Below the pieces are notes generated by a model. The model was given only the letters and a program-made list of their open reading frames with translations, had not been told where the DNA came from and ran no database searches. A DNA stretch of 64,000 nucleotides, from contig NZ_CP036276.1 in NCBI RefSeq assembly GCF_007747995.1, positions 1,913,001 to 1,977,000 on the forward strand. Reading direction: 5' to 3'. The position numbers and the translations under genes are program-made. This DNA is from Symmachiella dynata. Its GTDB lineage: Bacteria; Planctomycetota; Planctomycetia; Planctomycetales; Planctomycetaceae. Position 1 is the stretch's first letter, and every line of letters starts with the position of its first letter. Positions 11,080-31,712 of the stretch are shown here, one piece after another.

Positions 11080-11204
11080 ATAACGGCATGTTCAACAGTT
11101 AATGGGTAGTCGACGTTTGTTGAGTATTTTCTTGCGGGATCAGAAAGCACTTGGTCGGTCACCGGCAGTTTTAAGCCCCGGCATTTTTGGGCGAGGCGTC
11201 GGTA

Positions 11205-11327
11205 ATGACCAGTATGGATATCATCGCTGTTCAGGAAGAACAGCTTGTTTTGGTAGGGAGACTGACACCCGGTGGAGATGTGGGAGTCGGCGCGACGATC
11301 GCCGCGAGAAAGGTACTGACACAGTGA
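11205..11327 (+). CDS. Small upstream reading frame (40 aa) overlapping the glnN start
   Basis: An ATG-initiated frame ([20 protein letters not shown], then [20 protein letters not shown]) ends in a TGA that overlaps the glnN GTG start as GTGA. GAGG lies about 11 bases upstream. No homology recognised. The exact overlap with glnN suggests translational coupling or a leader peptide, but a chance frame of this length is possible. It lies inside the predicted sigma-54 transcript. Confidence 0.35.
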
Positions 11328-15034: not shown

Positions 15035-17719
15035 ATGCCTCAAGCGGAATTGAATCGACTGGCCGCCGAGTCGCGGCGTGAAACCGGTGCGAACTGGAAA
15101 CGGTGGGGGCCTTATCTCGCAGAACGGCAATGGGGCACCGTCCGCGAAGATTATTCCAGTGACGGCAGACCCTGGCTGCATTTTACCCATGAAGAGGCAG
15201 TTTGGCGGGCCTACCGTTGGGGCGAAGATGGGCTACTGGGGATCACCGACCGGCAATGCCGACTCTGCTTTGCCGTCGCACTGTGGAATGGTCAAGATCC
15301 GATCCTGAAGGAGCGTCTGTTCGGCTTGACCGGACCGGAGGGGAATCACGGCGAGGACGTCAAAGAGGCTTATTATTACCTCGATTCCACACCGACGCAT
15401 TCTTACCTCAAAGCACTGTACAAATATCCGCAGGCCGAATATCCCTACCAGCATTTGCGGTCCGAGAATGCGCAGCGCACGCGGCACGATCCGGAATTCG
15501 AACTGACCGAAACGGGGATCTTCGACGACGGTCGTTATTTCGATGTGCAGATCGAATATGCCAAAGCGGCCTGCGAAGATATTCTCATTCGGATTCAGAT
15601 ATCGAACCGCGGGCCGGAGGATGCTCCGATTCATCTGCTGCCAACTTGGTGGTATCGCAATACATGGTCCTGGGGACCCACCGATGAACAGCCGAGCGTG
15701 AAACCGAGCCTCCGCCAAATCGACGGCAGCAGCCTATTGGCTATGCACGAAACGTTGGGCGAGTTTCAGATTCACGCAGATGCCGGGCCCGATCAGCAAC
15801 CGCCCGGTTGGATGTTTACGGAAAACGAAACCAATACCTGGCGGATCGATGACCCAGAAAGCCGTCGTCCCTCGTGTAAGGATGCCTTCCACTTGGCCGT
15901 TGCTGAGGGCATCGAAGGCGTGGTGAACCCCGAACCAGAGGGCACCAAGGCAGCGGCGCGGTACCATGCGCTGGTCCCGGCAGGCGGATCTGTGGAGTTC
16001 CGCTTGCGGATGACAGCGACGAATCAGATTCCTGACCAACCGTTCGGTGAAGAATTTGACCGGACGTTTGAGCAGCGGATAGCCGAAGCCGATTCATTTT
16101 CGGCATCACTGGTGGACCCGGGATTGTCCGTCGACGAGCAGCGCGTTTTACGACAAGCCAATGCGGGACTGCTATGGACCAAGCAGTTCTATCATTACGT
16201 CATTCCCCGTTGGCTGGATGGAAAGAGCCCGCCGGGTCAGCATACCGGACCGCGGACCGTTCGCCGCAACAGCGATTGGGGGCACCTGTTCAACCGCGAC
16301 ATTATTTCGATGCCGGACAAATGGGAATACCCCTGGTATGCCGCCTGGGATTCTGCGTTCCACATGATTCCGTTCGCCGATTTGGACCCGGATTTCGCCA
16401 AGGATCAGGCGATCCTGTTTTTGCGTGAATGGTATATGCACCCTACAGGGCAGATTCCAGCGTACGAATGGAATTTGAGCGACGTCAATCCGCCCGTGCA
16501 CGCCTGGGCCTGCTGGCGGGTGTATCAGATTACGGCGAGTCTGGGAGACCGGGACCGCATTTTTTTGGAGCGGGTCTTTCAAAAGCTATTGTTGAATTTC
16601 ACCTGGTGGGTCAACCGCAAGGATGTTCGCGGCAAGCATGTCTTTACTGGCGGATTTCTCGGACTGGATAACATCGGCATCTTTGATCGCTCCAAGCCGT
16701 TACCGACGGGCGGACATCTGGAACAGGCCGACGGAACAGCCTGGATGGCCTATTACTGTTCCAGCATGTTGTCGATCGCGTTTGACCTGGCGGACGACAA
16801 TCCGGCCTACGAGGATATGGCCTCGAAGTTTTTCGAGCATTATGTTTCGATCGCCGAAGCGATGAATTCGCTGGATGGGACAGGGCTGTGGGATGAGACC
16901 GACGGGTTTTACTATGACCATTTGCATTTGGATGGTCACAGTATGCCGCTGCGAATTCGTTCGATTGTTGGTTTGATTCCGCTATTGACCGTCGATGTGA
17001 TTTACGACCGCGTTCTGGATCAGTTGCCGGGATTCCGTAAGCGGATGGACTGGTTTTTGAATCATCGTCCCGATCTCTCGAAATTTATGACCTATATGGA
17101 ACGGGGCGATCCGAACCAGGATGGCAATGGGTTGCGATTATTGGCAATTCCGACACGGGAACGGTTATCGCGGTTGTTGTGGTATTTGCTCAACGAAGAT
17201 GAGTTTCTCTCTCCCTACGGAGTGCGGTCGCTCTCGAAATATCATGAGGAGCACCCCTTCGAATACGATTTGAACGGTGAAAAACTGCGAGTGCAGTATT
17301 TGTCCGGCGAGTCGGACAGTGGGTTGTTCGGCGGCAATTCCAACTGGCGAGGGCCGGTTTGGTTTCCGTTGAATTATCTTCTCATCGAAGCATTGGAGCG
17401 GTATCATCAGTTCTACGGAGAGACATTACGGGTTGAATGTCCTACGCGTTCCGGTCGATATATGAATTTGCGGCAGGTCGCGGATGAGATCCGCAAACGG
17501 TTGGCGAAGCTGTTTTTGGCGGATTCAGAAGGGGATCGTCCTTGTTATACGCGGGGGGAGCGTTTCCTGAATGATCCGCATTGGCGTGACTTGGTTCTGT
17601 TTTATGAGTACTTCGACGCCGAGACCGGCAAGGGCCTGGGCGCGAGCCATCAGACGGGCTGGACGGCGTTGATTTCCCCGATCCTAAAAACTTTGGCGAG
17701 TCGTCGAGAACACGATTAG
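15035..17719 (+). CDS. GH63-type glucosidase (MGH1-like (alpha/alpha)6 barrel)
   Basis: The 894-residue protein has no signal peptide. The N-terminal part contains ERLFGLTGPEGNHGEDVKE and YYLDSTPTHSY, characteristic of bacterial GH63-type glucosidases; the C-terminal two thirds form an (alpha/alpha)6 barrel with the motifs PGQHTGPRTVRRNSDWGH, PWYAAWDSAFHMIPFA and SNWRGPVWFPLNYLLIEAL, which carry the likely catalytic acids. Members act on alpha-glucosides such as mannosylglycerate-type or oligosaccharide substrates; the actual substrate is unknown. The start is not well supported by a ribosome-binding site. The amidoligase cassette begins 370 bases downstream. Confidence 0.85.
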   Translation: MPQAELNRLAAESRRETGANWKRWGPYLAERQWGTVREDYSSDGRPWLHFTHEEAVWRAYRWGEDGLLGITDRQCRLCFAVALWNGQDPILKERLFGLTGPEGNHGEDVKEAYYYLDSTPTHSYLKALYKYPQAEYPYQHLRSENAQRTRHDPEFELTETGIFDDGRYFDVQIEYAKAACEDILIRIQISNRGPEDAPIHLLPTWWYRNTWSWGPTDEQPSVKPSLRQIDGSSLLAMHETLGEFQIHADAGPDQQPPGWMFTENETNTWRIDDPESRRPSCKDAFHLAVAEGIEGVVNPEPEGTKAAARYHALVPAGGSVEFRLRMTATNQIPDQPFGEEFDRTFEQRIAEADSFSASLVDPGLSVDEQRVLRQANAGLLWTKQFYHYVIPRWLDGKSPPGQHTGPRTVRRNSDWGHLFNRDIISMPDKWEYPWYAAWDSAFHMIPFADLDPDFAKDQAILFLREWYMHPTGQIPAYEWNLSDVNPPVHAWACWRVYQITASLGDRDRIFLERVFQKLLLNFTWWVNRKDVRGKHVFTGGFLGLDNIGIFDRSKPLPTGGHLEQADGTAWMAYYCSSMLSIAFDLADDNPAYEDMASKFFEHYVSIAEAMNSLDGTGLWDETDGFYYDHLHLDGHSMPLRIRSIVGLIPLLTVDVIYDRVLDQLPGFRKRMDWFLNHRPDLSKFMTYMERGDPNQDGNGLRLLAIPTRERLSRLLWYLLNEDEFLSPYGVRSLSKYHEEHPFEYDLNGEKLRVQYLSGESDSGLFGGNSNWRGPVWFPLNYLLIEALERYHQFYGETLRVECPTRSGRYMNLRQVADEIRKRLAKLFLADSEGDRPCYTRGERFLNDPHWRDLVLFYEYFDAETGKGLGASHQTGWTALISPILKTLASRREHD

Positions 17720-18089
17720 CAGCTGGCGAGATCACTGGTTGCCTGTATTTCAGTCATGTGTGGTTGATGTGCGCGTTCAGGCTTCGGTTTCGGGCTCTGC
17801 GAATGGATGCGAGTGGCCGATCATGGTGCGGTTTCATGGCTTTCGATAGCTGTGCCTTGATGCGTGCTGCCTTTGCGTAAAGTTTGGGCATGTTGAGCGG
17901 CGCGTCTTCAGATTCCTTTCAATTGGTGTTCGCTGGTAAACACTACGGAGCGCAGAATTGTCTGAGTTGTATGCAATTCCGTTTTCTGGGCTGTGCACGG
18001 CATGTGACTTGCACATGTGAACAATATGGTTGTACGTGCGGAGGTTTTTTGGACCCTAGTATTCGTTGGAAAACTCGAGGATTTCTCAG
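17720..18089. other. Intergenic leader of the amidoligase cassette
   Basis: These 370 bases contain no credible gene. They hold a weaker sigma-54 promoter candidate (17998-18013) and the Shine-Dalgarno GAGG at 18077-18080, with nothing else recognised. Confidence 0.6.
17998..18013 (+). promoter_or_regulatory. Possible sigma-54 promoter of the amidoligase cassette
   Basis: CGGCATGTGACTTGCA has GG and GC at the required 12-base spacing; it matches 5 of 7 bases of the -24 element and all of the -12 element. The predicted start is about 65 bases before the first gene. CATGTG (18001-18006) and CACATG (18012-18017) form a small inverted repeat over the -12 region. The match is weaker than that at glnN. 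Confidence 0.4.
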
Positions 18090-19571
18090 ATGAGGCAAGC
18101 TTCCTATCAGTCGAAAGGCGTCTTCGACGAAATGTTTGCTCCCAATGGTCAACCCCGGGCCAGTGGAGCTCAATTCGTAGAACGACTGCAGACGTTGTCG
18201 GACGGCAGTTTGCAGCAACGGCAAAAAGCGGCTGAGTTGAGCCTGGAAAACATGGGGATTACTTTCAATGTCTATGGGCATGCCGCCGGGACGGAGAAGG
18301 TGTGGCCGTTTGACCTGCTACCACGAATCATCGATGCGACCGAATGGGCGATGGTCGAAAAAGGATTGCAGCAGCGCATTCGCGCGTTGAACTTTTTTGT
18401 CAACGATGTCTACAACGAACAGAAGATCTTCAAGGATGGCGTCGTCCCAGACGAACTTGTGCTGTCTTCAAAAACATTGCGGAAGCAATGCCAGGGGTTT
18501 CAACCGCCGCAGGGGGTATGGTGTCATATCACCGGTGTCGATCTAATTCGTGATAACGACGGACAGATCTACGTGCTGGAGGATAACTTGCGCTGCCCGT
18601 CGGGGGTCTCCTATGTGCTCGAAAATCGCGAAATGATGAAGCGGACGTTCGCGCATGTGTTTCAGGGCATGTCGGTTGCTCCGATCGAAGACTATAGCGA
18701 GCAATTGTTGCAGACGTTGTTAGATTGCGCTCCTCCAGGAATCAGCGATCCAATTGCCGTGGTTCTGACGCCGGGGATTTACAACTCGGCCTATTTTGAG
18801 CACACATTTCTCGCCCAGCAAATGGGTGTGGAACTCGTGCAAGGCTCGGACTTGGTTGTCGAAAACGGCTATGTGCACATGAACACGACGCGGGGACTAC
18901 GCCGCGTGGATGTGATTTATCGCCGAATCGACGATGATTTTTTGGATGCCAAGTGTTTTCGCAAAGACTCGACGTTAGGCGTCGATCATTTGATGGACGT
19001 GTATCGCGCAGGACGCGTTACGTTGGCCAATGCTCCTGGTACCGGGGTGGCGGACGATAAAGCGGTCTATGCTTACGTGCCTGAAATCATCAAGTACTAC
19101 TTGGGCGAAGATGCGATTCTGCCGAATGTTCCCACGTTTTTGTGTTCCGTGGAGAAACAGCGTAAGCACGTGCTGGCCAACTTAGACAAATTGGTGGTCA
19201 AACCGACGAACGAGTCGGGTGGATATGGGATTCTGATGGGGCCGCAAGCTTCGCAAGCGGAACGCGACAAAACGGCTGAGGCGATTCGCGCAAATCCCCG
19301 CGAATGGATCGCTCAACCGATGCTCAAGCTGTCGACCGTCCCCACGTTGGTGGGTGATGAGTTGAAGCCTCGCCATGTTGATTTGCGACCCTTTGTGTTA
19401 TGCGGCAAGGAAATCTACGTGATGCCCGGCGGACTGACGCGTGTGGCGTTGCGTGAAGGATCCATGGTCGTCAATTCCTCGCAAGGAGGAGGCAGCAAGG
19501 ATACTTGGGTGCTGCGGAACGGTGATGCCGTACCTCCGCTCCCAGCGATGGATGCCGGAGGAATGTTATAA
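18090..19571 (+). CDS. Circularly permuted ATP-grasp protein (COG2308), stand-alone
   Basis: A 493-residue ATP-dependent ligase-like enzyme expected to form amide/peptide bonds. Family: DUF404/DUF407 circularly permuted ATP-grasp, described as part of predicted peptide-synthesis operons together with alpha-E, transglutaminase and sometimes Anbu genes. The putative metal-binding segment [10 protein letters not shown] is near residues 163-172, and the nucleotide-binding lysine and glycine loop [12 protein letters not shown] near 369-380 are intact. The ATG at 18090 was chosen because GAGG lies 9 bases upstream; an ATG at 18066 would add 8 residues. The stop overlaps the start of the alpha-E gene by one base (TAATG). 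Confidence 0.92.
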
Positions 19572-20590
19572 TGCTGAGCCGCGTTGCGAATTCTGTGTAT
19601 TGGTTGAGTCGTTATATTGAGCGGGCGGAGAACGTCGCCCGTTTTATCGATGTGAATTACAACCTGACTTTGGGGGAGACCGATTCGCTCGGCAACCAGT
19701 GGGCGCCGTTGGTCTACACCACCGGTGACCAGGAGCCGTTTGAAAAAAGGTACGGGGCACCGACACGGGAAAACGTGTTGAAGTTTTTGTCGTTCGACGA
19801 GGATAACCCGAATTCAATCATCTCCTGTGCGGCCTTTGCCCGAGAAAATGCGCGGACGATTCGCGAGAGCCTGCCGTCCGTGGTTTGGGAACAACTCAAC
19901 AAATTTTTCTTCATGGTCCGCACGGCCGCCAAGGTCAGTTCGACGTTGGATCAACCTCAGGAATTCTGTGAGCGGGTCCGCTTGGCGAGCCATTTGTTGG
20001 TGGGCGCCACCGATGCCACGATGTCTCACGGCGAGGCTTGGCACTTTTTGCGGCTGGGGCGGTTGCTGGAGCGGGCTGACAAGACCTCGCGGATCGTCGA
20101 CGTGCAGTATTATATTTTGTTACCCGATGCACACGATGTGGGATCGGCGCTCGATGTGGTCCGTTGGTCGGCTTTGTTGAAATCGGCCAGTGCATTGGAA
20201 ATGTATCGTCGGCAACATGGCAAAATTGTTCCCGAGCGTGTGGCGGATTTTCTGGTGCTGGATCGCCATTTTCCACGCGCCATCCATTTTTGTCTGATGA
20301 AAGCGCAGGAGTCGTTGCGGAATATTACCGGGAGTACGTCCGGCACGTTTTGCAATCTGGCCGAACAACGCATGGGACAATTGTGTTCGGCGATGGATTA
20401 CACCAGCGTGCGGGATATCGTCCAGCACGGGTTGCATCAATATATCGACGACTTTCAAAACCGATTGAATCTGGTAGGCGCTGCAATCAGCGATGATTTT
20501 TTTACAACGCACCAGCAACGACAGGCACGCAACGCCGAAGCGTCCGGTCAATCACAGGCACAAACGCAAACACAAACACAATCGAGTTGA
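19571..20590 (+). CDS. Alpha-E domain protein (COG2307)
   Basis: A 339-residue, mainly alpha-helical protein beginning [26 protein letters not shown], the signature start of the alpha-E family. It is almost always encoded with the circularly permuted ATP-grasp protein and probably forms a complex with it; its biochemical role is unknown. Conserved stretches seen are SHGEAWHFLRLGRLLERADKTSRI and HFPRAIHFC. The last 20 residues are a low-complexity Gln/Thr tail (QSQAQTQTQTQSS). Translation is coupled to the upstream gene by a one-base overlap. A second alpha-E domain is fused to the ATP-grasp gene at 24578. Confidence 0.92.
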   Translation: MLSRVANSVYWLSRYIERAENVARFIDVNYNLTLGETDSLGNQWAPLVYTTGDQEPFEKRYGAPTRENVLKFLSFDEDNPNSIISCAAFARENARTIRESLPSVVWEQLNKFFFMVRTAAKVSSTLDQPQEFCERVRLASHLLVGATDATMSHGEAWHFLRLGRLLERADKTSRIVDVQYYILLPDAHDVGSALDVVRWSALLKSASALEMYRRQHGKIVPERVADFLVLDRHFPRAIHFCLMKAQESLRNITGSTSGTFCNLAEQRMGQLCSAMDYTSVRDIVQHGLHQYIDDFQNRLNLVGAAISDDFFTTHQQRQARNAEASGQSQAQTQTQTQSS

Positions 20591-21140
20591 GATGATCCAG
20601 CGCGTCGGTGCCGTACTCAAGCTTGAAAAAAAATAGCCACAGAGTTCACAGAGGACACAGAGAGAGCGGGCACGGTGGCTGGAGCGGTTGTTGGTTGATT
20701 CGATCTGAGGCTGCGTGTGTTGCACGATAGGGAAAGTTTGCGTGATTCGTCGCAAGGGGTTTTTCTGTGGCTAGTACCTGCGTGCGTGAACGATAGTACG
20801 AAAACCACACCGCTCGGCAATTGGGTCGCAAACAGAGAAAGTTTAAACCGCAGGAAAAAATATCCACGAAAAAAACGAAAGACACGAAAAGAACTAAGTA
20901 ATTCTATCTGGGATTTTCTTTTGATTCCTACTTCAGCGGCGTAAGTCCTCGTTGTTTTCTTTGAAGGTTTTCGTGTCTTTCGCGTCTTTCGTGGTTGTAT
21001 TTTGATGGCGGAAAAAGCCGATTCCGGGGTGTCGTGCCCCACGAAGTACTATCTGAAAATGGATTGCCAGTAGATACAGACGGATCGCATTTGAGAGTAT
21101 TTGAAACCAGTCGTTGGCATCCGTTGAACGGACAACTGAT
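20591..21140. repeat. 550-base noncoding insertion with imperfect inverted repeats inside the cassette
   Basis: Short frames here do not look like protein. An AGCCACAGAGTTCACAGAGG-type tract lies at about 20633-20665. Two 27-base arms, 20864-20890 (CCACGAAAAAAACG then AAAGACACGAAAA) and 20968-20994 (its reverse complement at 24 of 27 positions), flank about 77 bases, so the region can fold into a long hairpin. This resembles a small non-autonomous repeat element inserted between the alpha-E and transglutaminase genes. It may also terminate or attenuate the transcript. Confidence 0.6.
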
Positions 21141-24100
21141 ATGATACGCGTTGCACTGAACCACAAGTCCATTTATGAGTACGACCGCGCTGTCGAGATG
21201 AACCCGCACGTCGTACGACTGCGGCCCGCGCCGCATTGCCGTACGCCGATTAACAGCTATTCGCTGCGGGTGCTGCCCGGCAAGCATTTTCTCAATTGGC
21301 AACAAGATCCGCACAGCAACCATTTGGCGCGGCTGATCTTCAATGGAGAGACCACGCTGTTCGAGGTGGAAGTCGATCTGGTGGCGGAGATGACGGTTGT
21401 TAATCCGTTTGATTTCTTCCTCGAACCGGATGCGGAAATGTTCCCGTTCCAATACGAGGAATCGCTCGCCAAGGATCTACTGCCATTCCTGCACGTTCAT
21501 CCGGCCGGCCCGGAATTGACGGCGCTGTTTGAGTCGGTCGACATGACACCGACGAAGACGATCGACTTCATTGTCGATTTGAACCGGCGTCTACAACAGA
21601 TTGTGAGTTACGTCGTGCGGTTGGAACATGGCGTGCAAACGCCAGAGGAAACGTTAGAGTTGGGTAGCGGGTCTTGCCGGGACAGTGCGTGGTTGATGGT
21701 TCAACTATTACGGCGATTGGGGTTGGCCGCCCGCTTCGTGTCGGGGTATCTGATTCAGCTCAAGCCGGATGTCGAATCGCTGGATGGTCCCTCGGGCGCG
21801 ACGGAGGACTTTACGGATCTGCATGCCTGGGCGGAAGTCTATCTACCGGGGGCCGGTTGGATTGGGTTGGATCCCACGTCGGGGTTGTTGGCCGGCGAAG
21901 GGCACATTCCGTTGGCGTGTACGCCCGAACCAATCAATGCTGCGCCGATCACGGGAACCATCGGGGAATGCGAAGTTACTTTCCGGCATGAGATGACCGT
22001 CACGCGGGTTCACGAAGATCCCCGCGTCACTAAACCGTATACCGAGGCTGAGTGGCAGCGGATCGAAGCGACAGGACATGAGGTCGACGAACTGTTGGAG
22101 CAGGGGGATGTGCGGCTGACCATGGGGGGCGAACCGACGTTTGTGTCGATCGACGACATGGATGGCGACGAATGGAAGACCGCCGCTGTCGGGCCGAACA
22201 AACGCCGCCTCGCGGGCAATTTGATCAGTCGTCTGCGACAGCGCTATGCTGAGGGTGGGTTGATTCATTACGGACAGGGCAAATGGTATCCCGGCGAACC
22301 ATTGCCCCGCTGGGCGCTGACTTGCATGTGGAGAACGGATGGCCAACCGCTGTGGGACAATACCGCGCTACTGGCTGATCCGGATCAGGACTATGGGCAC
22401 ACAGTCGAACATGCGGAACAATTTTCTGCGGCGTTGGCAAAACGTCTGGACGTCAATCCCGACCACATTGCACCGGCGTACGAAGATGCCATGTATTACG
22501 TCTGGAAAGAGCGGCGACTGGCGGTGAATACCGAAGTGCACAAAGCCGATCTGGAAGACAAAGAGGAACGCGCACGGTTGGCCCGCGTGTTTGGACAGGG
22601 ACTCACCGCAAAGGTCGGTTGTGTGCTGCCGTTGGTGCATCAATGGTGGAATGCTCAACCGCGCTGGCTGAGCGGGCAGTGGCCCGTCCGTCCCGAGCAG
22701 ATGTTTTTAGTCCCGGGCGATTCGCCCATGGGCCTGCGTTTGCCGCTGGATTCGTTACCGGTTGAAGGGCCGGGGGATTATGTGTCGGTGCCGGTCGTTC
22801 CGTTTGAGCCATCCAAACAGCTTCCCGATTTCGAATTCTTTCGCCAAAACTACTCGGCCCGCCTCAATTCTCAATCGACCCGCGCACGGACGCGCGACCA
22901 CGCACTTCAGCCGGTCGGACCGGGAGGAGAACTCGCGGATTCCGGTGAGAATCCGTCCGAGGACAATTCGCCGCCCGAGGAGCAGACTCCCCAAAACGAC
23001 AACACACGCAAAGAATACGAGAGCGGAATTGTCCGCACGGCCATGTGCTTTGAAGTGCGAAACGGGGTTTTGCATGTGTTCATGCCTCCGGTGGACCGTT
23101 TGGAAGATTATCTCGATCTGATTACGGCAATCGAACAGACCGCTGACGAACTTGAGATGCCGGTGATCATCGAAGGCTACTTGCCGCCGTCCGATTATCG
23201 TTTGCAACACGTGAAGGTCACGCCCGATCCGGGGGTGATCGAGGTGAATGTGCAACCGGCCGAGAATTGGTCGGAGTTGGTTTCCATCGCTTCAGGGATT
23301 TACGAGGATGCCCGTTTGTCGCGGTTGGGGACCGAAAAATTTGACGTTGATGGCACGCACACAGGTACGGGAGGCGGCAACCATGTGGTTATGGGGGCGC
23401 TGACACCGGCGGACAGTCCATTTTTGCGGCGTCCCGATTTGTTGCGAAGCTTGGTGGCGTATTGGCACAATCATCCTTCGTTGTCGTATCTATTTTCAGG
23501 GCGATTTATTGGTCCGACGAGCCAAGCCCCACGAGTGGACGAAGGCCGCGGCGATGCGACATACGAATTACAAATCGCGTTTGAACAGATTCCGGAAAAG
23601 GGGCCTTGTCCTCCCTGGTTGGTCGACCGCGTTTTTCGGCATTTGCTGGTGGACCTGACGGGCAATACACACCGCGCTGAGTTTTGCATCGACAAACTGT
23701 ATTCGCCCGACAGTGCGACGGGACGATTGGGATTGGTGGAGTTTCGCGCCTTTGAGATGCCTCCACACTGGCAAATGAGTCTCACACAGCAGTTGTTGTT
23801 GCGGGCATTGGTCGCACGGTTTTGGGAAAAACCTTATCAGGCCAAGTTGATGGACTGGTACCGCTCGATTCATGATCGCTGGATGTTGCCGCATTTCATT
23901 CGGCAGGATTTCAACGATGTGATTGAAGAAACCACGAAGGCTGGGATTCCGTTGGATGCGGATTGGTTCGCGCCGCACTTTGAGTTTCGTTTTCCGGTCA
24001 TCGGTGAAATGGAGCAAATGGGGATTTCGCTGGAGTTGCGGACCGCTGTGGAACCGTGGTATGTGCTGGGCGAAGAACCAGCCGGTGGCGCTACGGCTCG

Positions 24101-24542
24101 CTACGTCGATTCGTCCGTGCAGCGACTACAAGTCAAGGCGCGGGGCATGTTCGATGCGCGTCACGTGATCACTTGCAACGGTCGCAAGGTGCCTTTGCAT
24201 CCCACCGGCACGGCGGGCGAATTTGTTGCTGGAGTACGGTATCGGGCTTGGCAACCGCCAAATTGCCTGCATCCCACAATTCCTGTGGATGAGCCGTTGG
24301 TGTTTGATGTGTTGGATACTTGGCTGGGCCGCTCGGTGGGCGGGTGCAAGTATCACGTGGGGCATCCCGGCGGTCGGAATCCGGACGATTTCCCCGTCAA
24401 TGCCTATGAAGCGGAGGGCCGCCGTGCTTCTCGGTTCTTTAAGATGGGGCATACTGGCGGAGCAACGACGATTCCAGACGACGAGCAGAACGAAGTGTTT
24501 CCGTTTACGCTTGACCTTCGCCGAAATCGCGTCAAAGTATAG
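21141..24542 (+). CDS. Transglutaminase-DUF2126 fusion protein
   Basis: The 1133-residue product has an N-terminal bacterial transglutaminase-like N domain (MIRVALNHKSIYEYDRAV onward), a transglutaminase core with Cys179 (GSGSCRD), His228 (DLHAWAE) and Asp244 (GLDPTSG), and then a long DUF2126 domain (COG4196, about 310-1130, including LTMGGEPTFVSIDD, GTGGGNHVVMGAL and SLSYLFSGRFIGPTSQAPR). GGGNH-containing DUF2126 resembles glutamine-synthetase-like/carboxylate-amine ligase folds, so it may be a second amide-forming module. An acidic Pro/Glu-rich linker interrupts it near residues 585-630. The ATG at 21141 was preferred to one at 21114 because the family begins MIRVALNH. It lies in the amidoligase cassette. 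Confidence 0.92.
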   Translation: MIRVALNHKSIYEYDRAVEMNPHVVRLRPAPHCRTPINSYSLRVLPGKHFLNWQQDPHSNHLARLIFNGETTLFEVEVDLVAEMTVVNPFDFFLEPDAEMFPFQYEESLAKDLLPFLHVHPAGPELTALFESVDMTPTKTIDFIVDLNRRLQQIVSYVVRLEHGVQTPEETLELGSGSCRDSAWLMVQLLRRLGLAARFVSGYLIQLKPDVESLDGPSGATEDFTDLHAWAEVYLPGAGWIGLDPTSGLLAGEGHIPLACTPEPINAAPITGTIGECEVTFRHEMTVTRVHEDPRVTKPYTEAEWQRIEATGHEVDELLEQGDVRLTMGGEPTFVSIDDMDGDEWKTAAVGPNKRRLAGNLISRLRQRYAEGGLIHYGQGKWYPGEPLPRWALTCMWRTDGQPLWDNTALLADPDQDYGHTVEHAEQFSAALAKRLDVNPDHIAPAYEDAMYYVWKERRLAVNTEVHKADLEDKEERARLARVFGQGLTAKVGCVLPLVHQWWNAQPRWLSGQWPVRPEQMFLVPGDSPMGLRLPLDSLPVEGPGDYVSVPVVPFEPSKQLPDFEFFRQNYSARLNSQSTRARTRDHALQPVGPGGELADSGENPSEDNSPPEEQTPQNDNTRKEYESGIVRTAMCFEVRNGVLHVFMPPVDRLEDYLDLITAIEQTADELEMPVIIEGYLPPSDYRLQHVKVTPDPGVIEVNVQPAENWSELVSIASGIYEDARLSRLGTEKFDVDGTHTGTGGGNHVVMGALTPADSPFLRRPDLLRSLVAYWHNHPSLSYLFSGRFIGPTSQAPRVDEGRGDATYELQIAFEQIPEKGPCPPWLVDRVFRHLLVDLTGNTHRAEFCIDKLYSPDSATGRLGLVEFRAFEMPPHWQMSLTQQLLLRALVARFWEKPYQAKLMDWYRSIHDRWMLPHFIRQDFNDVIEETTKAGIPLDADWFAPHFEFRFPVIGEMEQMGISLELRTAVEPWYVLGEEPAGGATARYVDSSVQRLQVKARGMFDARHVITCNGRKVPLHPTGTAGEFVAGVRYRAWQPPNCLHPTIPVDEPLVFDVLDTWLGRSVGGCKYHVGHPGGRNPDDFPVNAYEAEGRRASRFFKMGHTGGATTIPDDEQNEVFPFTLDLRRNRVKV

Positions 24543-24577
24543 GCTTCCGATTTTTTTTGAGTAGCGAATCGGGCGTC

Positions 24578-27145
24578 ATGGTACAACTTCAGGAACCGAA
24601 CGACATCGTGCCCACATCCCCTCTGTCCGTGAACGGTCTAATTCAAAATTACGCGCCGCCTGCCGGGGTTTATGATGAATTTATTGCCGCCGATGGAACT
24701 CCCCGCGCACACACCCGTGGCTTTTTGGATTCCATCAACGGGATCGGCCGCGAAGAGTTTGCGCGGCGATGGCAGCAAGCGCAGCGAACGGTGCAGGCCA
24801 ACGACTTTGCATTTGGCGGCTACGCCACACCCGAAGACAAGTTGCGTCCGTGGGAGCTGGATGCGATTCCGCTCATGATATCCGCAGCGGAATGGGATAA
24901 GGTCTCCGCGGCGCTGACGCAACGCGCCCGGTTGTTGAATCTGGTGCTGCAGGATTTGTATGGTGAGCAAACACTGGTCAAGCAAGGGTTATTGCCACCG
25001 GAATTGTTGTACGCGCATCCGGGATTTTTGCGTCCGTATCACGGACAATTGGATCCCTCTCGTCACATGCTCCACTTCTACGCGGCCGATTTGGCGCGTT
25101 CGCCCAACGGGGAATGGTGGATTCTGGCGGATCGGACGGAAGCTCCTTCGGGGCTGGGATATGCCTTGGAGAACCGGATTGTCGTCTCGCGGATGCTGCC
25201 GGACATTTTTCATCGCTGTCAGGTCGAGCGTTTGGCGCCATTTTTTATCGCGGCCCAGGAGACGTTGCACGGTCTTGCTCCGCAACATACGGAAAACCCG
25301 CGGGTAGTGTTGTTGAGCCATGGGCCGACGAGCCTGAACTATTTCGAAGATTCCTATCTGGCACGCTATCTGGAGTACACCCTGGTTGAAGGGGGGGATC
25401 TTGCCGTACGCAACGACCAAGTCATGCTCAAGACTTTGGGCGGATTGCTGCCGGTCGATGTGATCCTGCGGCGGCAGAACAGCAGTGACTGTGATCCGTT
25501 GGAGCTGGGTTCGAAATCGGGACTGGGAATTGCCGGGCTACGACAATCGACGCGAAACGGCGCGGTGGGCGTAGCTAATGCATTGGGGAGCGGTCTGGTC
25601 GAATCGGTGGCGTTTATGGCGTTCATGCCGCGCTTGTGCCAGTTGTTGCTCGGCGAGAAACTGTTGATTCCCGGGGTGGCATCCTGGTGGTGCGGACAAC
25701 CAGATGGGTTGGCGCACGTGCTCAAGAACTTGGACAACCTGATCATTCAACCGGCGTTTCGCAATCGCGGAAAAGATGGCCCCACGCGCGAGGCATTGGC
25801 GCAAATGTCATCGACGGAGTTAGCAAACACCATCAAAGCCAATCCGGTGCAATTTGCCGCTCAGGAGAAAGTGGCCCGTTCTACAGTTCCCATCTGGAGA
25901 CGTGATCTGAATCCGGCCTATTTGGCGTTGCGGAGCTATCTGGTAACCGATGGCGAAAAATATACCGTTATGCAAGGGGCATTAGCCCGCACCTCCTCAG
26001 CGCTCGATCCACTCGAACTGTCGGTTCGCAAGGGAGAAGGTAGCAAGGATGTGTGGATCTTAGCTGACGGACCGGTCGATCAGGTGACCCTGTTGGAAGA
26101 GCCGGGCCGGGCCATTACGCTGCGGCGCAGCGGAGCCGAACTTCCCAGTCGAACGGCCGACAACTTTTTTTGGCTGGGACGTCAAATGGAACGCGCCGAG
26201 GCAACAGCGCGGCTGTTACGCTCCGCGGCAAGCCGACTCAGCGGCGAAACGCGGTCGACCAGCGATGTGGAAGTCCCGGTGCTGCTGAGATGTCTGGCGG
26301 ACCAGGGGCAAATCGAACCAGGCTATGCGATCAACAAAATGCGCGGCCAACTGCCGGCGATTGAATACGATTTGCCCACGGCGGTCTTCGATTCCTCACA
26401 GCCCTCGTGCTTGCGTTCGATCTTGGACGAAGTCTATCGGTTGGGGGCCATCGTGCGCGATCGCATTTCATTGGACACATGGCGAATTATTCATGGCATC
26501 GACGAAGATTTTCGCCCGGCCGAACATGGGACGACGACCCTGTCGGACTTGCTGGCGATGACCGACGAGTTGATTGCCAAGTTCTCTGCGTTTAGCGGAG
26601 TGATTATGGAGAGTATGACGCGCACGCAAGCGTTTCATTTCCTGGAACTGGGACGGCGGCTGGAGCGTTCGTTACAAATCATAAGCTTGGTGAAAAACTG
26701 TTTCATCCCCATGCCGGAATTTCCCGGACCGATATTTGGGACGGTTTTGGAAGTTGCCGACAGCCTGATGACATATCGCGCGCGCTATCTGGCGAATCGG
26801 CAATTGGCGGCAGTTCTCGATCTGGTGCTCACAGATGAAACGAATCCGCGTGCGCTGGCGTTTCAGTTTGTGCAGTTGGTTGAACATGTGGAACAGTTGC
26901 CGCGCGACCAAACCTCACCCGATTACGCAGCCGAACAACGGCTGGCCATGTCATTGCTGCATTCCGTCCGCCTCATGGATATTCAGGCCATCGCCGAAGT
27001 TCATGCGTTGGGTGATCATGAACCGTTGGAACGACTGACGGCCGAATGGGAGTCCCAATTACCAAAACTTGCTGAAGCGATTTCGCATCGGTACCTCGTT
27101 CATGCAGCCCCATCTCACCAGCTTGCTGATATTAGCCCGCAGTGA
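24578..27145 (+). CDS. ATP-grasp/alpha-E fusion protein with degenerate ATP-grasp site
   Basis: The 855-residue fusion has an N-terminal circularly permuted ATP-grasp region (about 1-510) and a C-terminal alpha-E region (about 520-840; RTADNFFWLGRQMERAEATA is the signature). Compared by eye with the stand-alone gene at 18090, [10 protein letters not shown] is replaced by LADRTEAPSG and [12 protein letters not shown] by IIQPAFRNRGKDG (Gln391 in place of Lys), so the probable metal and ATP ligands are missing; this half may be a scaffold or pseudo-enzyme. The ATG at 24578 follows the DUF2126 gene by 35 bases; a TTG at 24557 is possible. Its TGA overlaps the next start (GTGA). Confidence 0.9.
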   Translation: MVQLQEPNDIVPTSPLSVNGLIQNYAPPAGVYDEFIAADGTPRAHTRGFLDSINGIGREEFARRWQQAQRTVQANDFAFGGYATPEDKLRPWELDAIPLMISAAEWDKVSAALTQRARLLNLVLQDLYGEQTLVKQGLLPPELLYAHPGFLRPYHGQLDPSRHMLHFYAADLARSPNGEWWILADRTEAPSGLGYALENRIVVSRMLPDIFHRCQVERLAPFFIAAQETLHGLAPQHTENPRVVLLSHGPTSLNYFEDSYLARYLEYTLVEGGDLAVRNDQVMLKTLGGLLPVDVILRRQNSSDCDPLELGSKSGLGIAGLRQSTRNGAVGVANALGSGLVESVAFMAFMPRLCQLLLGEKLLIPGVASWWCGQPDGLAHVLKNLDNLIIQPAFRNRGKDGPTREALAQMSSTELANTIKANPVQFAAQEKVARSTVPIWRRDLNPAYLALRSYLVTDGEKYTVMQGALARTSSALDPLELSVRKGEGSKDVWILADGPVDQVTLLEEPGRAITLRRSGAELPSRTADNFFWLGRQMERAEATARLLRSAASRLSGETRSTSDVEVPVLLRCLADQGQIEPGYAINKMRGQLPAIEYDLPTAVFDSSQPSCLRSILDEVYRLGAIVRDRISLDTWRIIHGIDEDFRPAEHGTTTLSDLLAMTDELIAKFSAFSGVIMESMTRTQAFHFLELGRRLERSLQIISLVKNCFIPMPEFPGPIFGTVLEVADSLMTYRARYLANRQLAAVLDLVLTDETNPRALAFQFVQLVEHVEQLPRDQTSPDYAAEQRLAMSLLHSVRLMDIQAIAEVHALGDHEPLERLTAEWESQLPKLAEAISHRYLVHAAPSHQLADISPQ

Positions 27146-28026
27146 ATTATCACATCACCCACACCACGAAATATATGTACTCCGAAGCGGTCCCGGTGTG
27201 CCATAATTTGGTGCATCTCGCTCCGCGGACGTTGCCCAATCAAGTCCCTGATGAATTCCGACTACTGATTCATCCCGAGCCGTACTCGGTCAGTTATGGC
27301 AAGGATTACTTCGGCAACGACGTCTCCTATTTTTCGATTTATCAAACCCACCGCGGTCTCACCGTGACAGCGACGAGCGATGTGGCGGTTTCCGCCGCCC
27401 CGGAAGTTGTCCCGGACGATACCGCACCTTGGGAACAGGTGGCAGCGCAATTGAAAACGGATCGCGCGGTCGAAGTGCTCGATGCGTATCAGTATGTCTT
27501 TGACTCGTCGAGCATTCAGCGATTCCCAGAATTAGCGGAGTACGTCAAACCGTCGTTTCCCGCAGGGCGACCGATTTTGGCGGGTGTGATCGACTTAACC
27601 GCACGGATCTACAACGACTTCACCTATGATCCCCGGGCGACGACAGTCCACACGCCGATTCGGGAAGTTTTTGAACAACGCCATGGTGTTTGCCAGGACT
27701 TTGCCCATTTGCAAATCGGCTGTCTGCGCTCGATTGGGTTAGCTGCACGCTATGTGAGCGGCTATTTGAGAACCGAGCCGCCACCGGGGAAACCGCGACT
27801 GGTGGGCTCGGATGCGTCGCATGCTTGGCTAGCGGTGTACTGTGGAGAGGCCGGTTGGGTCGGCATCGATCCCACGAACAATGTCTTGGCCTCGACCGAC
27901 CACATCACCATTGGATGGGGGCGTGAATACAACGACGTCTGTCCGATTCAAGGCATTATTATTGGCGGCGGCGAGCACCGCATGAGCGTCGAAGTCGATG
28001 TTGTTCCGCCCGAGGTGACGAGCTAA
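27142..28026 (+). CDS. Transglutaminase-like cysteine protease-fold protein
   Basis: The 294-residue protein has the bacterial transglutaminase-like N domain (MNYHITHTTKYMYSEAV) and a transglutaminase core with an intact triad: Cys184 (RHGVCQDFAHL), His227 (DASHAWLAV) and Asp243 (GIDPTNN). No signal peptide is seen, so it probably acts in the cytoplasm as a peptidase or amide-transfer enzyme on the product of the ATP-grasp proteins. The GTG start overlaps the upstream stop by four bases, so translation is coupled. It is the last gene of the cassette; a PTS gene is convergent 62 bases beyond. Confidence 0.92.
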   Translation: MNYHITHTTKYMYSEAVPVCHNLVHLAPRTLPNQVPDEFRLLIHPEPYSVSYGKDYFGNDVSYFSIYQTHRGLTVTATSDVAVSAAPEVVPDDTAPWEQVAAQLKTDRAVEVLDAYQYVFDSSSIQRFPELAEYVKPSFPAGRPILAGVIDLTARIYNDFTYDPRATTVHTPIREVFEQRHGVCQDFAHLQIGCLRSIGLAARYVSGYLRTEPPPGKPRLVGSDASHAWLAVYCGEAGWVGIDPTNNVLASTDHITIGWGREYNDVCPIQGIIIGGGEHRMSVEVDVVPPEVTS

Positions 28027-28088: not shown

Positions 28089-28658
28089 TCAGTCTTCCCC
28101 GACCAATGCGCGAGATTGCTCGTCGAGATCAGTCAGATATTCGTAAACGTCGCTGGGGCGAATTTGATGATGCAGTTGCATGTTCACGGCTTTGTTCTGC
28201 ATTAATGCGACCAAACGGCTCAGGAGAGTGATGTGCTGCTCCCGTCCGTCGCGCGGTGAGAGTGTCAGAAACACCAATTTGGTTAGCCCGCTGTCTAGCG
28301 CACTAAAGTTGATGCCGTCGGGGGCAACTCCAATGGCTCCGACAAAGTTTGTGACGTTTTGGGTGCGCAAATGAGGAAAGGCAAGTCCCTTGCCGATAGC
28401 GGATGTACCGTGCCGCTCCCGTTCCAAGAGTCCGTTGATGATCTCTTCAGCGTGGACGCGTTCGACTCGTTCTTCACAGACTAAGGTCTGAACCAGTCTG
28501 CTGATCACCGACGATTTCCCCGATGCTGAGCGAATCATCTCAATACAATTCGGTCGAAAAACACTGGTGAGATCCAAGTGAGGCGCAGCGGGCTTTTTTT
28601 CTGAAGGCGAGCCGACCGGGATGGCTCCGCTGTTTGGCATAGCGCTGGCACTGTTCAT
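28089..28658 (-). CDS. PTS EIIA-Ntr-like protein (fructose/mannitol EIIA family)
   Basis: The 189-residue product has a 30-residue Pro/Ser-rich N-terminus and an EIIA-2 domain. GLAFPHLRT places the phosphorylated His at residue 96. Standing alone without EIIB/EIIC, it is more likely a regulatory EIIA-Ntr-type protein than a sugar transporter. The ATG at 28658 has GGGGGGA upstream; the frame is open to 28850, but a sigma-54 promoter candidate at 28714-28729 lies inside that extension, favouring the shorter protein. The gene follows an NtrC-type two-component pair on the same strand. In other bacteria EIIA-Ntr genes adjoin rpoN; rpoN is not in this window. Confidence 0.88.
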   Translation of the reverse strand: MNSASAMPNSGAIPVGSPSEKKPAAPHLDLTSVFRPNCIEMIRSASGKSSVISRLVQTLVCEERVERVHAEEIINGLLERERHGTSAIGKGLAFPHLRTQNVTNFVGAIGVAPDGINFSALDSGLTKLVFLTLSPRDGREQHITLLSRLVALMQNKAVNMQLHHQIRPSDVYEYLTDLDEQSRALVGED

Positions 28659-28962
28659 CGAACGTATCCCCCCCAGAATAGAAAGCTTGCGAATGGTGAT
28701 ACTGCGTTGAAGACGCAATCGACGTGCCAAAGTCGTCGCGAAAGTTGGGTGAGGGAATTTGTTGATGTTTCTCGCTGGAATACTTGAGTTCCTTACTAGA
28801 ACGGGGCTTAAACATCGCAGTGGTTTGCAGTCCTGTGCAAGACTTTGCACGCAGTGAACCGTTAAGCAGTACTTGGACAGGGTGACCTATGCGACATTCT
28901 TCACTGAGAGACGCCGCCGCATTCTATGGGATTGGCAAGCGGCCAATGCGTGTGGAGTTGCC
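28659..28962. other. Intergenic promoter region of the EIIA-Ntr-like gene
   Basis: These 304 bases separate the NtrC-type regulator stop from the EIIA start. Apart from the sigma-54 candidate no gene or strong hairpin was seen. Confidence 0.55.
28714..28729 (-). promoter_or_regulatory. Sigma-54 (-24/-12) promoter candidate for the EIIA-Ntr-like gene
   Basis: Read on the minus strand, TGGCACGTCGATTGCG matches TGGCACG-N4-TTGCW at 11 of 12 defined bases with exact spacing; only the final W is missed. The predicted start is near 28703, about 45 bases before the ATG at 28658. It is one of the two best sigma-54 matches seen in the window. Confidence 0.75.
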
Positions 28963-30321
28963 TCAATGCAGGCCGTAACGGCTCATTTTATAATGCAGCG
29001 TCCGCACACTGACTCCGAGTGCTTTTGCGGTTTGTTCGCGGTGGCAGTCGGAGGCAGCCAAGGCGGCTTGAATGGCATCTTTTTCGGCATCTTCGGCGAC
29101 TTCCGTCAGCGAGCGGATTCGCGCCGGGGCGGTTGTGGAGGTGTGGCGAATCTCTTGTGGCAGATCCTCGACACCGATCACATCCCCCTGCACGGTCACA
29201 ACCAAGCGTTCCATGACGTTGCGAAGTTGCCGTACGTTGCCGGGCCAGCGCGCAGCTGTCAACTGATGCATGGCTTCGTCCTGGAGTTGCTTGGGAGGAC
29301 GATTGTGCCGTTGGCAAAAGTGCGTTAGGAAATGTTCGATCAACAGAGGAATGTCGTCGCGCCGCTGTCGCAAAACCGGGACGTGGATGGGGACGATATT
29401 CAACCGGTAAAACAGGTCATCCCGAAATGTGCCGTCGTCGATCAGCACCTGAATGTCTTTGTTCGTGGCTGAGATAATCCGCGCGTCGGAAGAGAGTAGT
29501 TCTTCACCACCGACACGATTGAAATGTCCCGACTCGAGGACGCGGAGCAGGTCGACTTGGCTTTTGGGCGGGATCTCCGTGATTTCATCAAGAAAAAGTG
29601 TGCCACTACGGGAGCGCTCAAAACAACCCGGTTTTTGTCGAGCAGCGCCGGTGAAGGCCCCTTTTTCGTGGCCAAAGAGTTCACTTTCCAGCAAGGTTTC
29701 CGGCAGAGCACCCAGGTTAATGGCGACAAATGGACCATTGCGGCGGTCGCTCAAATCATGCAGGGCGCGTGCGATCAGTTCCTTACCGGTGCCGCTTTCT
29801 CCTTGGATTAGCACTGTGGCATCGGTGTCGGCCACTTGGCGAATTTGATGAAAGACATCCTGCATCGCCGAACAATTTCCGATAATGCCGGAGATCTCAC
29901 CCGCATCGGCTAGGCGGTCTCGGAGTTCGCGATTTTCCACTTGCAAGCGATGATGGTCGAATGCTCGATTGACCTGTTGGCGAATGAGGTTCAAATCGAC
30001 CGGCTTGGAGATAAAATCAAACGCGCCGCGTCGCATTGCGTCCACTGCGGTTTCCACTGTGCCGTGCGCTGTGATCACAATCACCGTTGTTTCGGGCTTG
30101 CGCTCCAAGAGCAACGAGACGAGGTCCAGACCATCGCGATCACCTGGCAAGCGGACGTCGGCGATGACGAGGCGGAAATCTCCTTCATCAAACAGTTCCA
30201 GCGCCTGGTGGACGTCACGAGCAGTGGCAATGACATCCGCCTCTTTCATGAGGCCTTTGGCCAAACCGGATCGAATGTTTGGTTCGTCATCGACAATTAA
30301 AATATTGAATCCGTCGTGCAT
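28963..30321 (-). CDS. NtrC-family sigma-54-dependent response regulator
   Basis: A 452-residue activator with three domains: receiver with phospho-acceptor Asp55 (VIADVRLPG), AAA+ domain with Walker A GESGTGK (174-180) and the sigma-54-contacting GAFTGA loop (221-226), and a C-terminal Fis-type helix-turn-helix (AALAASDCHREQTAKALGVS). It should open sigma-54 promoters when phosphorylated by the upstream kinase. The ATG at 30321 was chosen over a TTG at 30342. The gene lies 29 bases behind the kinase gene and ahead of the EIIA gene that carries a sigma-54 promoter candidate. Confidence 0.94.
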   Translation of the reverse strand: MHDGFNILIVDDEPNIRSGLAKGLMKEADVIATARDVHQALELFDEGDFRLVIADVRLPGDRDGLDLVSLLLERKPETTVIVITAHGTVETAVDAMRRGAFDFISKPVDLNLIRQQVNRAFDHHRLQVENRELRDRLADAGEISGIIGNCSAMQDVFHQIRQVADTDATVLIQGESGTGKELIARALHDLSDRRNGPFVAINLGALPETLLESELFGHEKGAFTGAARQKPGCFERSRSGTLFLDEITEIPPKSQVDLLRVLESGHFNRVGGEELLSSDARIISATNKDIQVLIDDGTFRDDLFYRLNIVPIHVPVLRQRRDDIPLLIEHFLTHFCQRHNRPPKQLQDEAMHQLTAARWPGNVRQLRNVMERLVVTVQGDVIGVEDLPQEIRHTSTTAPARIRSLTEVAEDAEKDAIQAALAASDCHREQTAKALGVSVRTLHYKMSRYGLH

Positions 30322-30350
30322 AGCGGCGTGTAATTCCGTCAATAAAAACC

Positions 30351-31712
30351 TTAACCCAACGGAAGCGTCATCGTGAAGGTGGTTCCTTCATCGGAACAGC
30401 GAAAATCGAGGCTGCCGCGGTGTTGGCGGATGATTTTGTCACACAACGCAAGTCCCATGCCAGTGCCTTCACTTTTGGTCGTGAAATACGGGTCAAAGAT
30501 GCGGTCGCGGAGGTTCTGCGGGATGCCGGTCCCAGTATCGACGACTTCGATTTGAATCGCACTGCCGGTCGGGGTCTCAACAACTGAGGGGCGGATCGTC
30601 AATACCCCGCCTTCGGTCATGTTTTCCATGGCATTGACGAGTAGGTTGAGCAGTACCTGTTCTAGGCGTACGCGATCCGCTTGAATCGAGGGCAAGGTTG
30701 TCTCGGGAATTTCGGTGCGGAAAGCGATATTTTGCATGTCTGCGCGCGGCGCAATCAATTTGACTTGGCGATCAATCAATTTCGCGATTTCTACTTGAGA
30801 ATGATTCAATTGTCCCAGCGACGCGTAGTCGCGAAAGCTTTCGAGAACTCCTCCGACACGCGTCATTTCAGTTTTGATAACGCCCAGCATTTCATGGACT
30901 TCATCCAACGTCTCGTGTCCCTCCAACTCCTCTTCCATCAATTGAACGTGCAGCGACAACGCTGCCAATGGGTTTTTGATTTCATGATGCAATCCGGCTG
31001 CGAGTGACCCAAGGCCGATGTAGCGCTCCATGCGGCGCAAGCTTTCCTCAACCAGCACGCGTTCCGTGACATCGCTGATTTGGACGACGTTTCCAATATC
31101 CTCGTTTACCCGATTTCGCAGCGGATGACAAAACGCGCGCAAGGAACGCGTTCCGCCGGTTTTGGTCACGGGAAAGTCGCGGACCAAGGGCAATGTTTCA
31201 GCAGCCCGAGATTCCTGCCGGAACTCCTCCAGCGGAATTCGCTCATCCAGCTGTCGCAACGGTCTGCCGATTTGGTCCTCATGCAGTGAGAACATCTCAA
31301 TGCCGCAACGATTGATCCCGGTGACGTGACCGGTCGGATCTGTGGTGATGATCGCCTGATCGATACTGCCCAAAACGTCGTCGGCCAGGACCATGATATT
31401 TCGCAGCGATTCTTGCGAGGAGCGGTAAGCCCGCCACAGTAACACGACCGCAATTCCAGTCACAATCAGATTCAGGACGACGAGGATTGTCAGGCGGAAT
31501 TGCCAGCGAAGTTCACCGGCGAGTTCTTCGGCAGAAGTCTCCGCGGCGCCAGCGGGCAAGAGTTGGATCAGATTTTGAACAATCTCTTGTTCCCGCAGAA
31601 AATCGACCATGACCCAGATGGTGACAGCCAAAGACACCACACTCAGCGTCAATAATCCGGCAATCGCCAGCCGGTAGGTACTATCGTTCTCTGTGGATTG
31701 GACTTGGAACAT
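30351..31712 (-). CDS. PAS-containing sensor histidine kinase (NtrB-like)
   Basis: A 453-residue membrane kinase. Two transmembrane helices (about 15-37 and 71-93) frame a very short periplasmic loop of about 33 residues. A PAS domain follows (about 110-220), then the dimerisation domain with the phosphorylated His243 in HHEIKNPLAALSL, and a catalytic ATPase domain with NLLVNAMENM, DTGTGIP and GTGMGLAL. It should phosphorylate the NtrC-type regulator encoded 29 bases downstream. The small loop and cytoplasmic PAS suggest an internal signal, not identified. Confidence 0.93.
   Translation of the reverse strand: MFQVQSTENDSTYRLAIAGLLTLSVVSLAVTIWVMVDFLREQEIVQNLIQLLPAGAAETSAEELAGELRWQFRLTILVVLNLIVTGIAVVLLWRAYRSSQESLRNIMVLADDVLGSIDQAIITTDPTGHVTGINRCGIEMFSLHEDQIGRPLRQLDERIPLEEFRQESRAAETLPLVRDFPVTKTGGTRSLRAFCHPLRNRVNEDIGNVVQISDVTERVLVEESLRRMERYIGLGSLAAGLHHEIKNPLAALSLHVQLMEEELEGHETLDEVHEMLGVIKTEMTRVGGVLESFRDYASLGQLNHSQVEIAKLIDRQVKLIAPRADMQNIAFRTEIPETTLPSIQADRVRLEQVLLNLLVNAMENMTEGGVLTIRPSVVETPTGSAIQIEVVDTGTGIPQNLRDRIFDPYFTTKSEGTGMGLALCDKIIRQHRGSLDFRCSDEGTTFTMTLPLG

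Follow-up and report, generated by a model that had tools for sequence, protein, structure and literature searches.

Two circularly permuted ATP-grasp proteins are encoded in one gene cluster of Symmachiella dynata, and one of them lacks residues that likely bind metal and ATP. The locus raises the question whether this copy is still a ligase and, if it is not, with which other protein of the cluster it works. The window analysed here is the whole stretch of 64,000 nucleotides (positions 1,913,001 to 1,977,000 of contig NZ_CP036276.1), and all coordinates refer to it.

A five-gene cluster encodes two ATP-grasp proteins

The cluster lies on the + strand and comprises, in this order, S, Alpha-E, TG-DUF2126, F and TG2, where S is a stand-alone circularly permuted ATP-grasp and F is an ATP-grasp fused to Alpha-E. 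All five genes were defined by open reading frames and Pfam matches. S (18090..19571) has an intact motif set in the alignment (E164-D165-N166, K324, K371 and G377-G380) and is followed by the stand-alone Alpha-E gene (19571..20590). TG-DUF2126 (21114..24542; a later ATG may be the true start) encodes a protein that joins a transglutaminase/papain-like domain to a putative amidoligase, with a model resembling glutamine synthetase. F (24578..27145) encodes 855 amino acids from its ATG and matched PF14403/PF04174 as well as PF04168; its end is overlapped by TG2 (27142..28026), a transglutaminase-like gene. The frames that an earlier note on this DNA had given for S, at 18090, and for F were recovered as described, both with ATG starts. 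Residues of S can be numbered from the ATG at 18090 (E164, N166, K324, K371) or from a TTG at 18066 (E172, N174, K332, K379).

The Pfam family CP_ATPgrasp_2 (PF14403), which we take to be COG2308, the name used in the earlier note, was found in S with 562 bits and in F with 444 bits. The match in F passed the curated cut-off of 32 and covered profile positions 1-373 of 374. These are the only two matches in the whole genome (7.77 Mb, one contig). The Alpha-E domain of F, found by Pfam, spans about residues 522-840 (26141..27097) and has kept the signature residues SR and ER. Judged by F, the nearest named relatives among the best 80 of 585 loci were planctomycetes.

An MGH1/GH63-like glycosidase is encoded immediately upstream of the cluster (15035-17719). 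Neighbours with a nitrogen theme occur as well, with a type III glutamine synthetase further upstream (11102-13576), and downstream the other strand encodes a PTS EIIA protein, a sigma-54-type response regulator and a histidine kinase (28089-31712). When the window's neighbours (glutamine synthetase III, channel, glycosidase, PTS, NtrC-like, kinase) were sought beside the clusters of relatives, the NtrC-like protein alone was matched, at 2 loci of L032-L151, where flanks are short. Sigma-54 promoter-like sites numbered 46 against 36.5 (sd 6.0) expected, and 7 of 100 shuffles reached as many, which gives no evidence for an excess.

Residues likely to bind metal and ATP are missing from nearly all fused copies

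Duplicate-free sets of 71 S and 174 F domains were aligned. They were drawn from a sample of 195 genomes of the window's phylum, from 80 named loci that belong to several phyla by record title, and from a sample of 249 genomes from the phylum to which an Azospirillum brasilense genome belongs. Only domains with at least 380 aligned residues were used, and removal of identical cores reduced the numbers from 193 to 175 and from 73 to 70 new ones. The F set consists of the window copy, 32 domains from the window's phylum, the 80 named loci and 61 domains from the second phylum, the latter taken from part of the F genes in about 85 genomes. The named loci were picked by Alpha-E patterns derived from F, as the best 80 of 585, and this set therefore favours F-like copies.

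An 11-residue stretch of S reads ILADRTEAPSG in the window F, and a 12-residue stretch reads IIQPAFRNRGKDG. At the E-x-N motif, E172 and N174 (TTG numbering; E164 and N166 from the ATG) occur in all 71 S domains. Among the F domains, by contrast, Glu was found in 2 of 174 and Asn in none, and the window carries A184-D185-R186 (25127..25135). The place of the Asn is taken by Arg in 158 of 174 F domains (1 in the window, 29 in its phylum, 79 in the named loci and 49 in the second phylum) and by His in 11. Two F copies have kept the Glu and lost the Asn (L174:1429-3969, LEDR; L184:7393-9918, LEDH) and are possible intermediates or reversions.

The first ATP-site lysine, K332 (K324 from the ATG), is Lys in 71 of 71 S and in 2 of 174 F domains; the window has V344 (25607..25609; codon checked), a loss that the earlier note had overlooked. 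At the second, K379 (K371 from the ATG), all 71 S domains have Lys, and F has Lys in 82, Arg in 41 and Gln in 6 of 174. The six Gln copies are that of the window (Q391, 25748..25750) and five of its own family (L042, L044, L047, L048 and L051). Where S has the Gly-rich loop GGYG, the window F carries R397-D400 (RGKD; 25766..25777), and over the whole set the first Gly is present in 71 of 71 S versus 10 of 174 F domains and the last in 71 of 71 versus 16 of 174. Window F thus has neither the E-x-N motif nor either of the two lysines nor the Gly-rich loop of a catalytic ATP-grasp ligase.

Overall, 98 positions are invariant in S. At least 90% of F domains have kept 33 of them and at least 90% have lost another 25, E172, N174, K332, G385 and G388 (TTG numbering) included, with 40 in between; the window F agrees with S at 49 of the 98. 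Nearly the whole family of F copies has therefore lost the Glu, the Asn, the first lysine and the loop, and the step from Lys to Gln is late and limited to the window and five members of its own family. The earlier note, which had called for an alignment of many family members, was right about the missing Glu and Asn and the lost GGYG, and the residue difference in that alignment is far beyond chance. Its replacement of Lys by Gln391 (numbered from the ATG at 24578) is present in the window F and is no feature of the family.

Genome G421 contains a stand-alone-like match in an unusually long frame of 830 amino acids, which might have been a fused copy that retained the residues. Its Alpha-E lies in a separate frame, and the gene is therefore an ordinary stand-alone one.

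What the lost residues would do may be judged from E. coli glutathionylspermidine synthetase (Gss). D159, E172-x-N174, K332 and K379 resemble Gss D318, E330-x-N332, K498 and K533 in spacing and neighbours, the motifs having been read by eye, and these Gss residues are presumably those that bind Mg and ATP. A comparison of the F/S family with the single E. coli Gss sequence by hhalign gave no significant profile match (E 0.34 and 0.55). Since the profile comparison did not align the Gss family, and the fold match to Gss gives no residue pairs, the correspondence rests on motif reading together with the fold match.

Other residues of the domain have been kept. At D159 (TTG numbering), which probably binds metal, 161 of 174 F domains carry Asp or Glu, and R286, R287, D294, R441, R459 and D479 are each retained in at least 161. 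With K or R at the second lysine place in 123 of 174 in addition, weak or metal-free nucleotide binding is conceivable. F might accordingly be a nucleotide-binding enzyme of altered chemistry, in which the conserved Arg neutralises charge and the retained K/R and D bind the nucleotide without the usual metal pair; the strong conservation of the replacing Arg would fit such an enzyme. However, nearly all F copies have lost the E/N pair together with the first lysine and the initial Gly of the loop, and in the window's own lineage the second lysine is lost as well. We regard an enzyme of this kind as unlikely.

The ATP-grasp fold is predicted to be retained in F

The F model, built from 43 sequences, had a mean pLDDT of 85.5 and a pTM of 0.82. 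Its residues 29-496 (24662..26065), the putative pseudo-ATP-grasp domain, matched 3n6x with Z 38.8 (442 residues aligned, rmsd 3.5 A, 29% identity; VIA-align, predicted model). YgiC, YjfC, glutathione synthetases and Gss were matched with Z 20.6-24.5, the E. coli Gss entries with 20.7-22.1. As modelled, F retains the circularly permuted ATP-grasp fold.

The fused copy is ancient and maintained

A quick tree of 82 rows, made without bootstrap, separated the 46 F rows from the 36 S rows by a single branch with SH-aLRT 100. Of 13 pairs tried, six, which come from few genera, were usable for dN/dS, and in these the ratio lay at 0.023-0.047 in the F domain and at 0.011-0.045 in S. In two of the six the dS of F, 2.5 and 3.2, comes close to saturation. 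F is thus under strong purifying selection in the six usable pairs, an estimate that applies to relatives of the window copy and not to the window's own branch. For the window F itself synonymous sites were saturated (pS 0.73-0.84) and the ratio was unusable.

Plain decay would see in F a duplicated copy drifting toward a pseudogene, and F does diverge faster: between the window and four relatives, dN was 0.20-0.26 for F and 0.10-0.14 for S. Against decay, F matches in 34 genomes had no internal stops, dN/dS is low in the usable pairs, and the replacement residues of F are conserved across phyla. We therefore consider decay very improbable. The single branch between F and S together with the purifying selection argues for an ancient and maintained pseudo-ATP-grasp, and the residue loss shared by relatives in many bacterial groups suggests a long-kept non-catalytic partner rather than a freshly broken enzyme. 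The features of a conserved pseudoenzyme appear to come together in F, namely a fold kept in the model, lost catalytic residues and purifying selection in relatives, and on this sequence evidence F is very likely a pseudo-ATP-grasp.

The fused copy tracks DUF2126

Among the 195 genomes of the window's phylum, S was present in 45, F in 34 and DUF2126 in 34. F and DUF2126 occurred together in 32 genomes, F only in two (G065, G072) and DUF2126 only in two (G033, G101). The lists of S and F for this sample were made by hand from 52 matched genomes, seven of which were left out as weak or short (G094 would exceed the cut-off if its pieces were summed). In the second phylum (249 genomes), among the matches listed, 75 genomes had F and DUF2126, 10 F only and 5 DUF2126 only; in the last group the gene of G255 lies at a contig end and G409 has fragments only. 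The F list there held 83 genomes picked by hand among the matches listed, with at most three candidates scored per genome, and G256 and G451 were included in addition, giving at least 85 F genomes. Fisher values for the co-occurrence were tiny in both samples, genomes being counted regardless of kinship. Pairing is not obligatory, since F occurs without DUF2126 in 2 of 34 F genomes and, among the matches listed, in 10 of 85. Genome G033, in which no F was found, carries DUF2126 matches in two adjacent frames and a stand-alone ATP-grasp (G033:C59:29355-34104).

Of 108 loci with sufficient flank, 105 have a TG gene immediately 3' of F. DUF2126 lies immediately upstream of F on the same strand in 73 of these 108 and within 3.5 kb in 84, counts that are low rather than high because some of the loci were chosen for missing DUF2126. 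S was found within 3.5 kb of F in 13 of 108. As S lies about 5 kb upstream of F in the window, a count with wider flanks is fairer, and of 42 named loci with at least 7 kb on each side, 37 had DUF2126 and 16 had S, S always together with DUF2126.

Partial correlations of distances were calculated for 46 loci carrying all three proteins, a set that contains close relatives and was not thinned. F correlated with DUF2126 given S at 0.61 (a value reached in 0 of 2000 permutations; jackknife range 0.59-0.65), F with S given DUF2126 at -0.07, and S with DUF2126 given F at 0.55; because linked neighbours share history, this result may partly reflect joint inheritance. For 24 named loci the first two values were 0.70 and -0.09. 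Of the markers, DUF2126 is the longer one, and with F accounted for it follows S as well.

These data bear on the role that the earlier note had given to F, that of a regulatory or structural partner of the active S, for example in a pseudo-heterodimer. S and F share a fold and, in the window, a gene cluster; moreover, S was present in all 34 F genomes of the 195 (in G081 and G097 as fragments only) and in 12 of 12 genomes of a further check. However, F was absent from 11 of the 45 S genomes, S lay within 7-8 kb of F far less often than DUF2126 did, and the correlation of F with S disappeared given DUF2126. We conclude that F tracks DUF2126 in gene order, co-occurrence and distance, and does not track S once DUF2126 is accounted for. 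A partnership with the active ATP-grasp is accordingly rather unlikely, and less likely than one with DUF2126. The pseudo-ATP-grasp of the earlier note is thus well supported by sequence, and the partner it had named finds little support beside the tie of F to DUF2126 (0.61 versus -0.07).

F copies from genomes in which no DUF2126 was detected (L059, L155, L174, L183 and L187-L193) lacked the Arg at the old metal place more often than the others, in 6 of 11 versus 10 of 163 (Fisher 8e-5, kinship uncorrected). This difference is a lead only.

A possible role beside a putative glutamine synthetase-like ligase

Pfam describes DUF2126 as a putative amidoligase. The model of TG-DUF2126 had a pLDDT of 77.9 and a pTM of 0.65, and its N-terminus resembled 3isr (Z 21.7). 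The remaining part of this model (pTM 0.65) resembled glutamine synthetases with Z up to 15.2 (9n4x_F, 266 aligned), YbdK with 12.9 and Dop with 12.8-13.1 in VIA-align; the Foldseek match to glutamine synthetases was weak (E about 0.05). Judged by the model, DUF2126 is plausibly a live glutamine synthetase-like ligase.

It seems probable to us, on balance, that F is a conserved pseudo-ATP-grasp that serves DUF2126 as a substrate-binding or scaffold partner. A circularly permuted ATP-grasp would have been duplicated in ancient times and one copy fused to Alpha-E. The Gly-rich loop, one likely ATP-site lysine and the likely Mg ligands (Glu and Asn, with Arg in place of the Asn in most copies) would then have been lost from the fused copy, and the fold, with roughly one third of the invariant residues, would have stayed; the order of these steps is our inference. 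The fused copy persists across phyla, as a rule in a unit of three genes, TG-DUF2126, F and TG2. Such a protein most likely no longer forms acyl-phosphates and presumably cannot hold Mg-ATP normally. Its substrate pocket and Alpha-E domain may bind a peptide or acyl substrate and present it to DUF2126, or may scaffold a complex in contact with it. The putative glutamine synthetase-like fold of TG-DUF2126 would carry out an ATP-dependent ligation and S a separate one, in keeping with the phosphate release from ATP by the ATP-grasp of the Yersinia bercovieri Anbu operon (PMC6376114). More tentatively, and with somewhat more doubt than confidence, we suggest that a dead ATP-grasp with a conserved Arg in the metal place became the substrate-presenting subunit of DUF2126, an ATP-dependent amidoligase of unrelated fold, so that the operon would couple two ATP-grasps, one live and one dead, with a glutamine synthetase-like ligase.

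Gene clusters of this kind are common, and PF14403 scored above its cut-off in 146 of 249 genomes of the second phylum sample. If F is dead family-wide, one of three apparent ligases drops from the pathway and DUF2126 is its likely partner.

Comparison with known systems

Operons of this type are already known, and their primary description is reportedly that of Iyer et al. (2009, Mol Biosyst). The literature searched, which did not include that paper, yielded no prior report of inactive fused copies. Pseudoenzymes with ATP-grasp-like motifs have likewise been proposed, as the available part of a report on TTLL12 states, in which a regulatory role was suggested for this inactive homologue (PMC3520985). 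TTLL12 is an animal protein that resembles tubulin ligases and has a SET-like domain, and we compare it with F as another proposed pseudoenzyme.

In Burkholderia cenocepacia such a gene cluster is under nitrogen control (PMC5491218) and in Pseudomonas putida related genes are raised on nitrate (PMC8050072), according to the available text of both papers. Together these reports suggest that the product of the cluster may be a peptide or amide metabolite of nitrogen limitation.

The Anbu operon encodes an ATP-grasp, an Alpha-E protein, a transglutaminase-like protein and Anbu, and the first three gene types stand together in the window cluster too. In the available part of a description of it, the ATP-grasp of the Yersinia bercovieri operon released phosphate from ATP, pull-down of co-expressed proteins of the operon gave no specific interaction with Anbu, F and DUF2126 were not named, and the role of the operon was said to lack experimental confirmation (PMC6376114). 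Unlike the Anbu operon, as far as that text describes it, the window cluster has DUF2126 and F, and a Pfam scan of its five genes (18066-28026) gave no match to any proteasome family.

The closest structural counterpart is 3n6x, a solved CP_ATPgrasp_2 protein and PF14403 member that shares its fold with the modelled F. It retains EDN and VVKxxxxSGGYG, whereas F lacks the E-x-N, the first lysine and the Gly-rich loop. E. coli Gss and YgiC/YjfC have the ATP-grasp fold in common with the F model as well (Z 20.7-24.5), but Gss has the Glu, the Asn and two lysines in look-alike motifs, and the window F is without the Glu, the Asn and both lysines.
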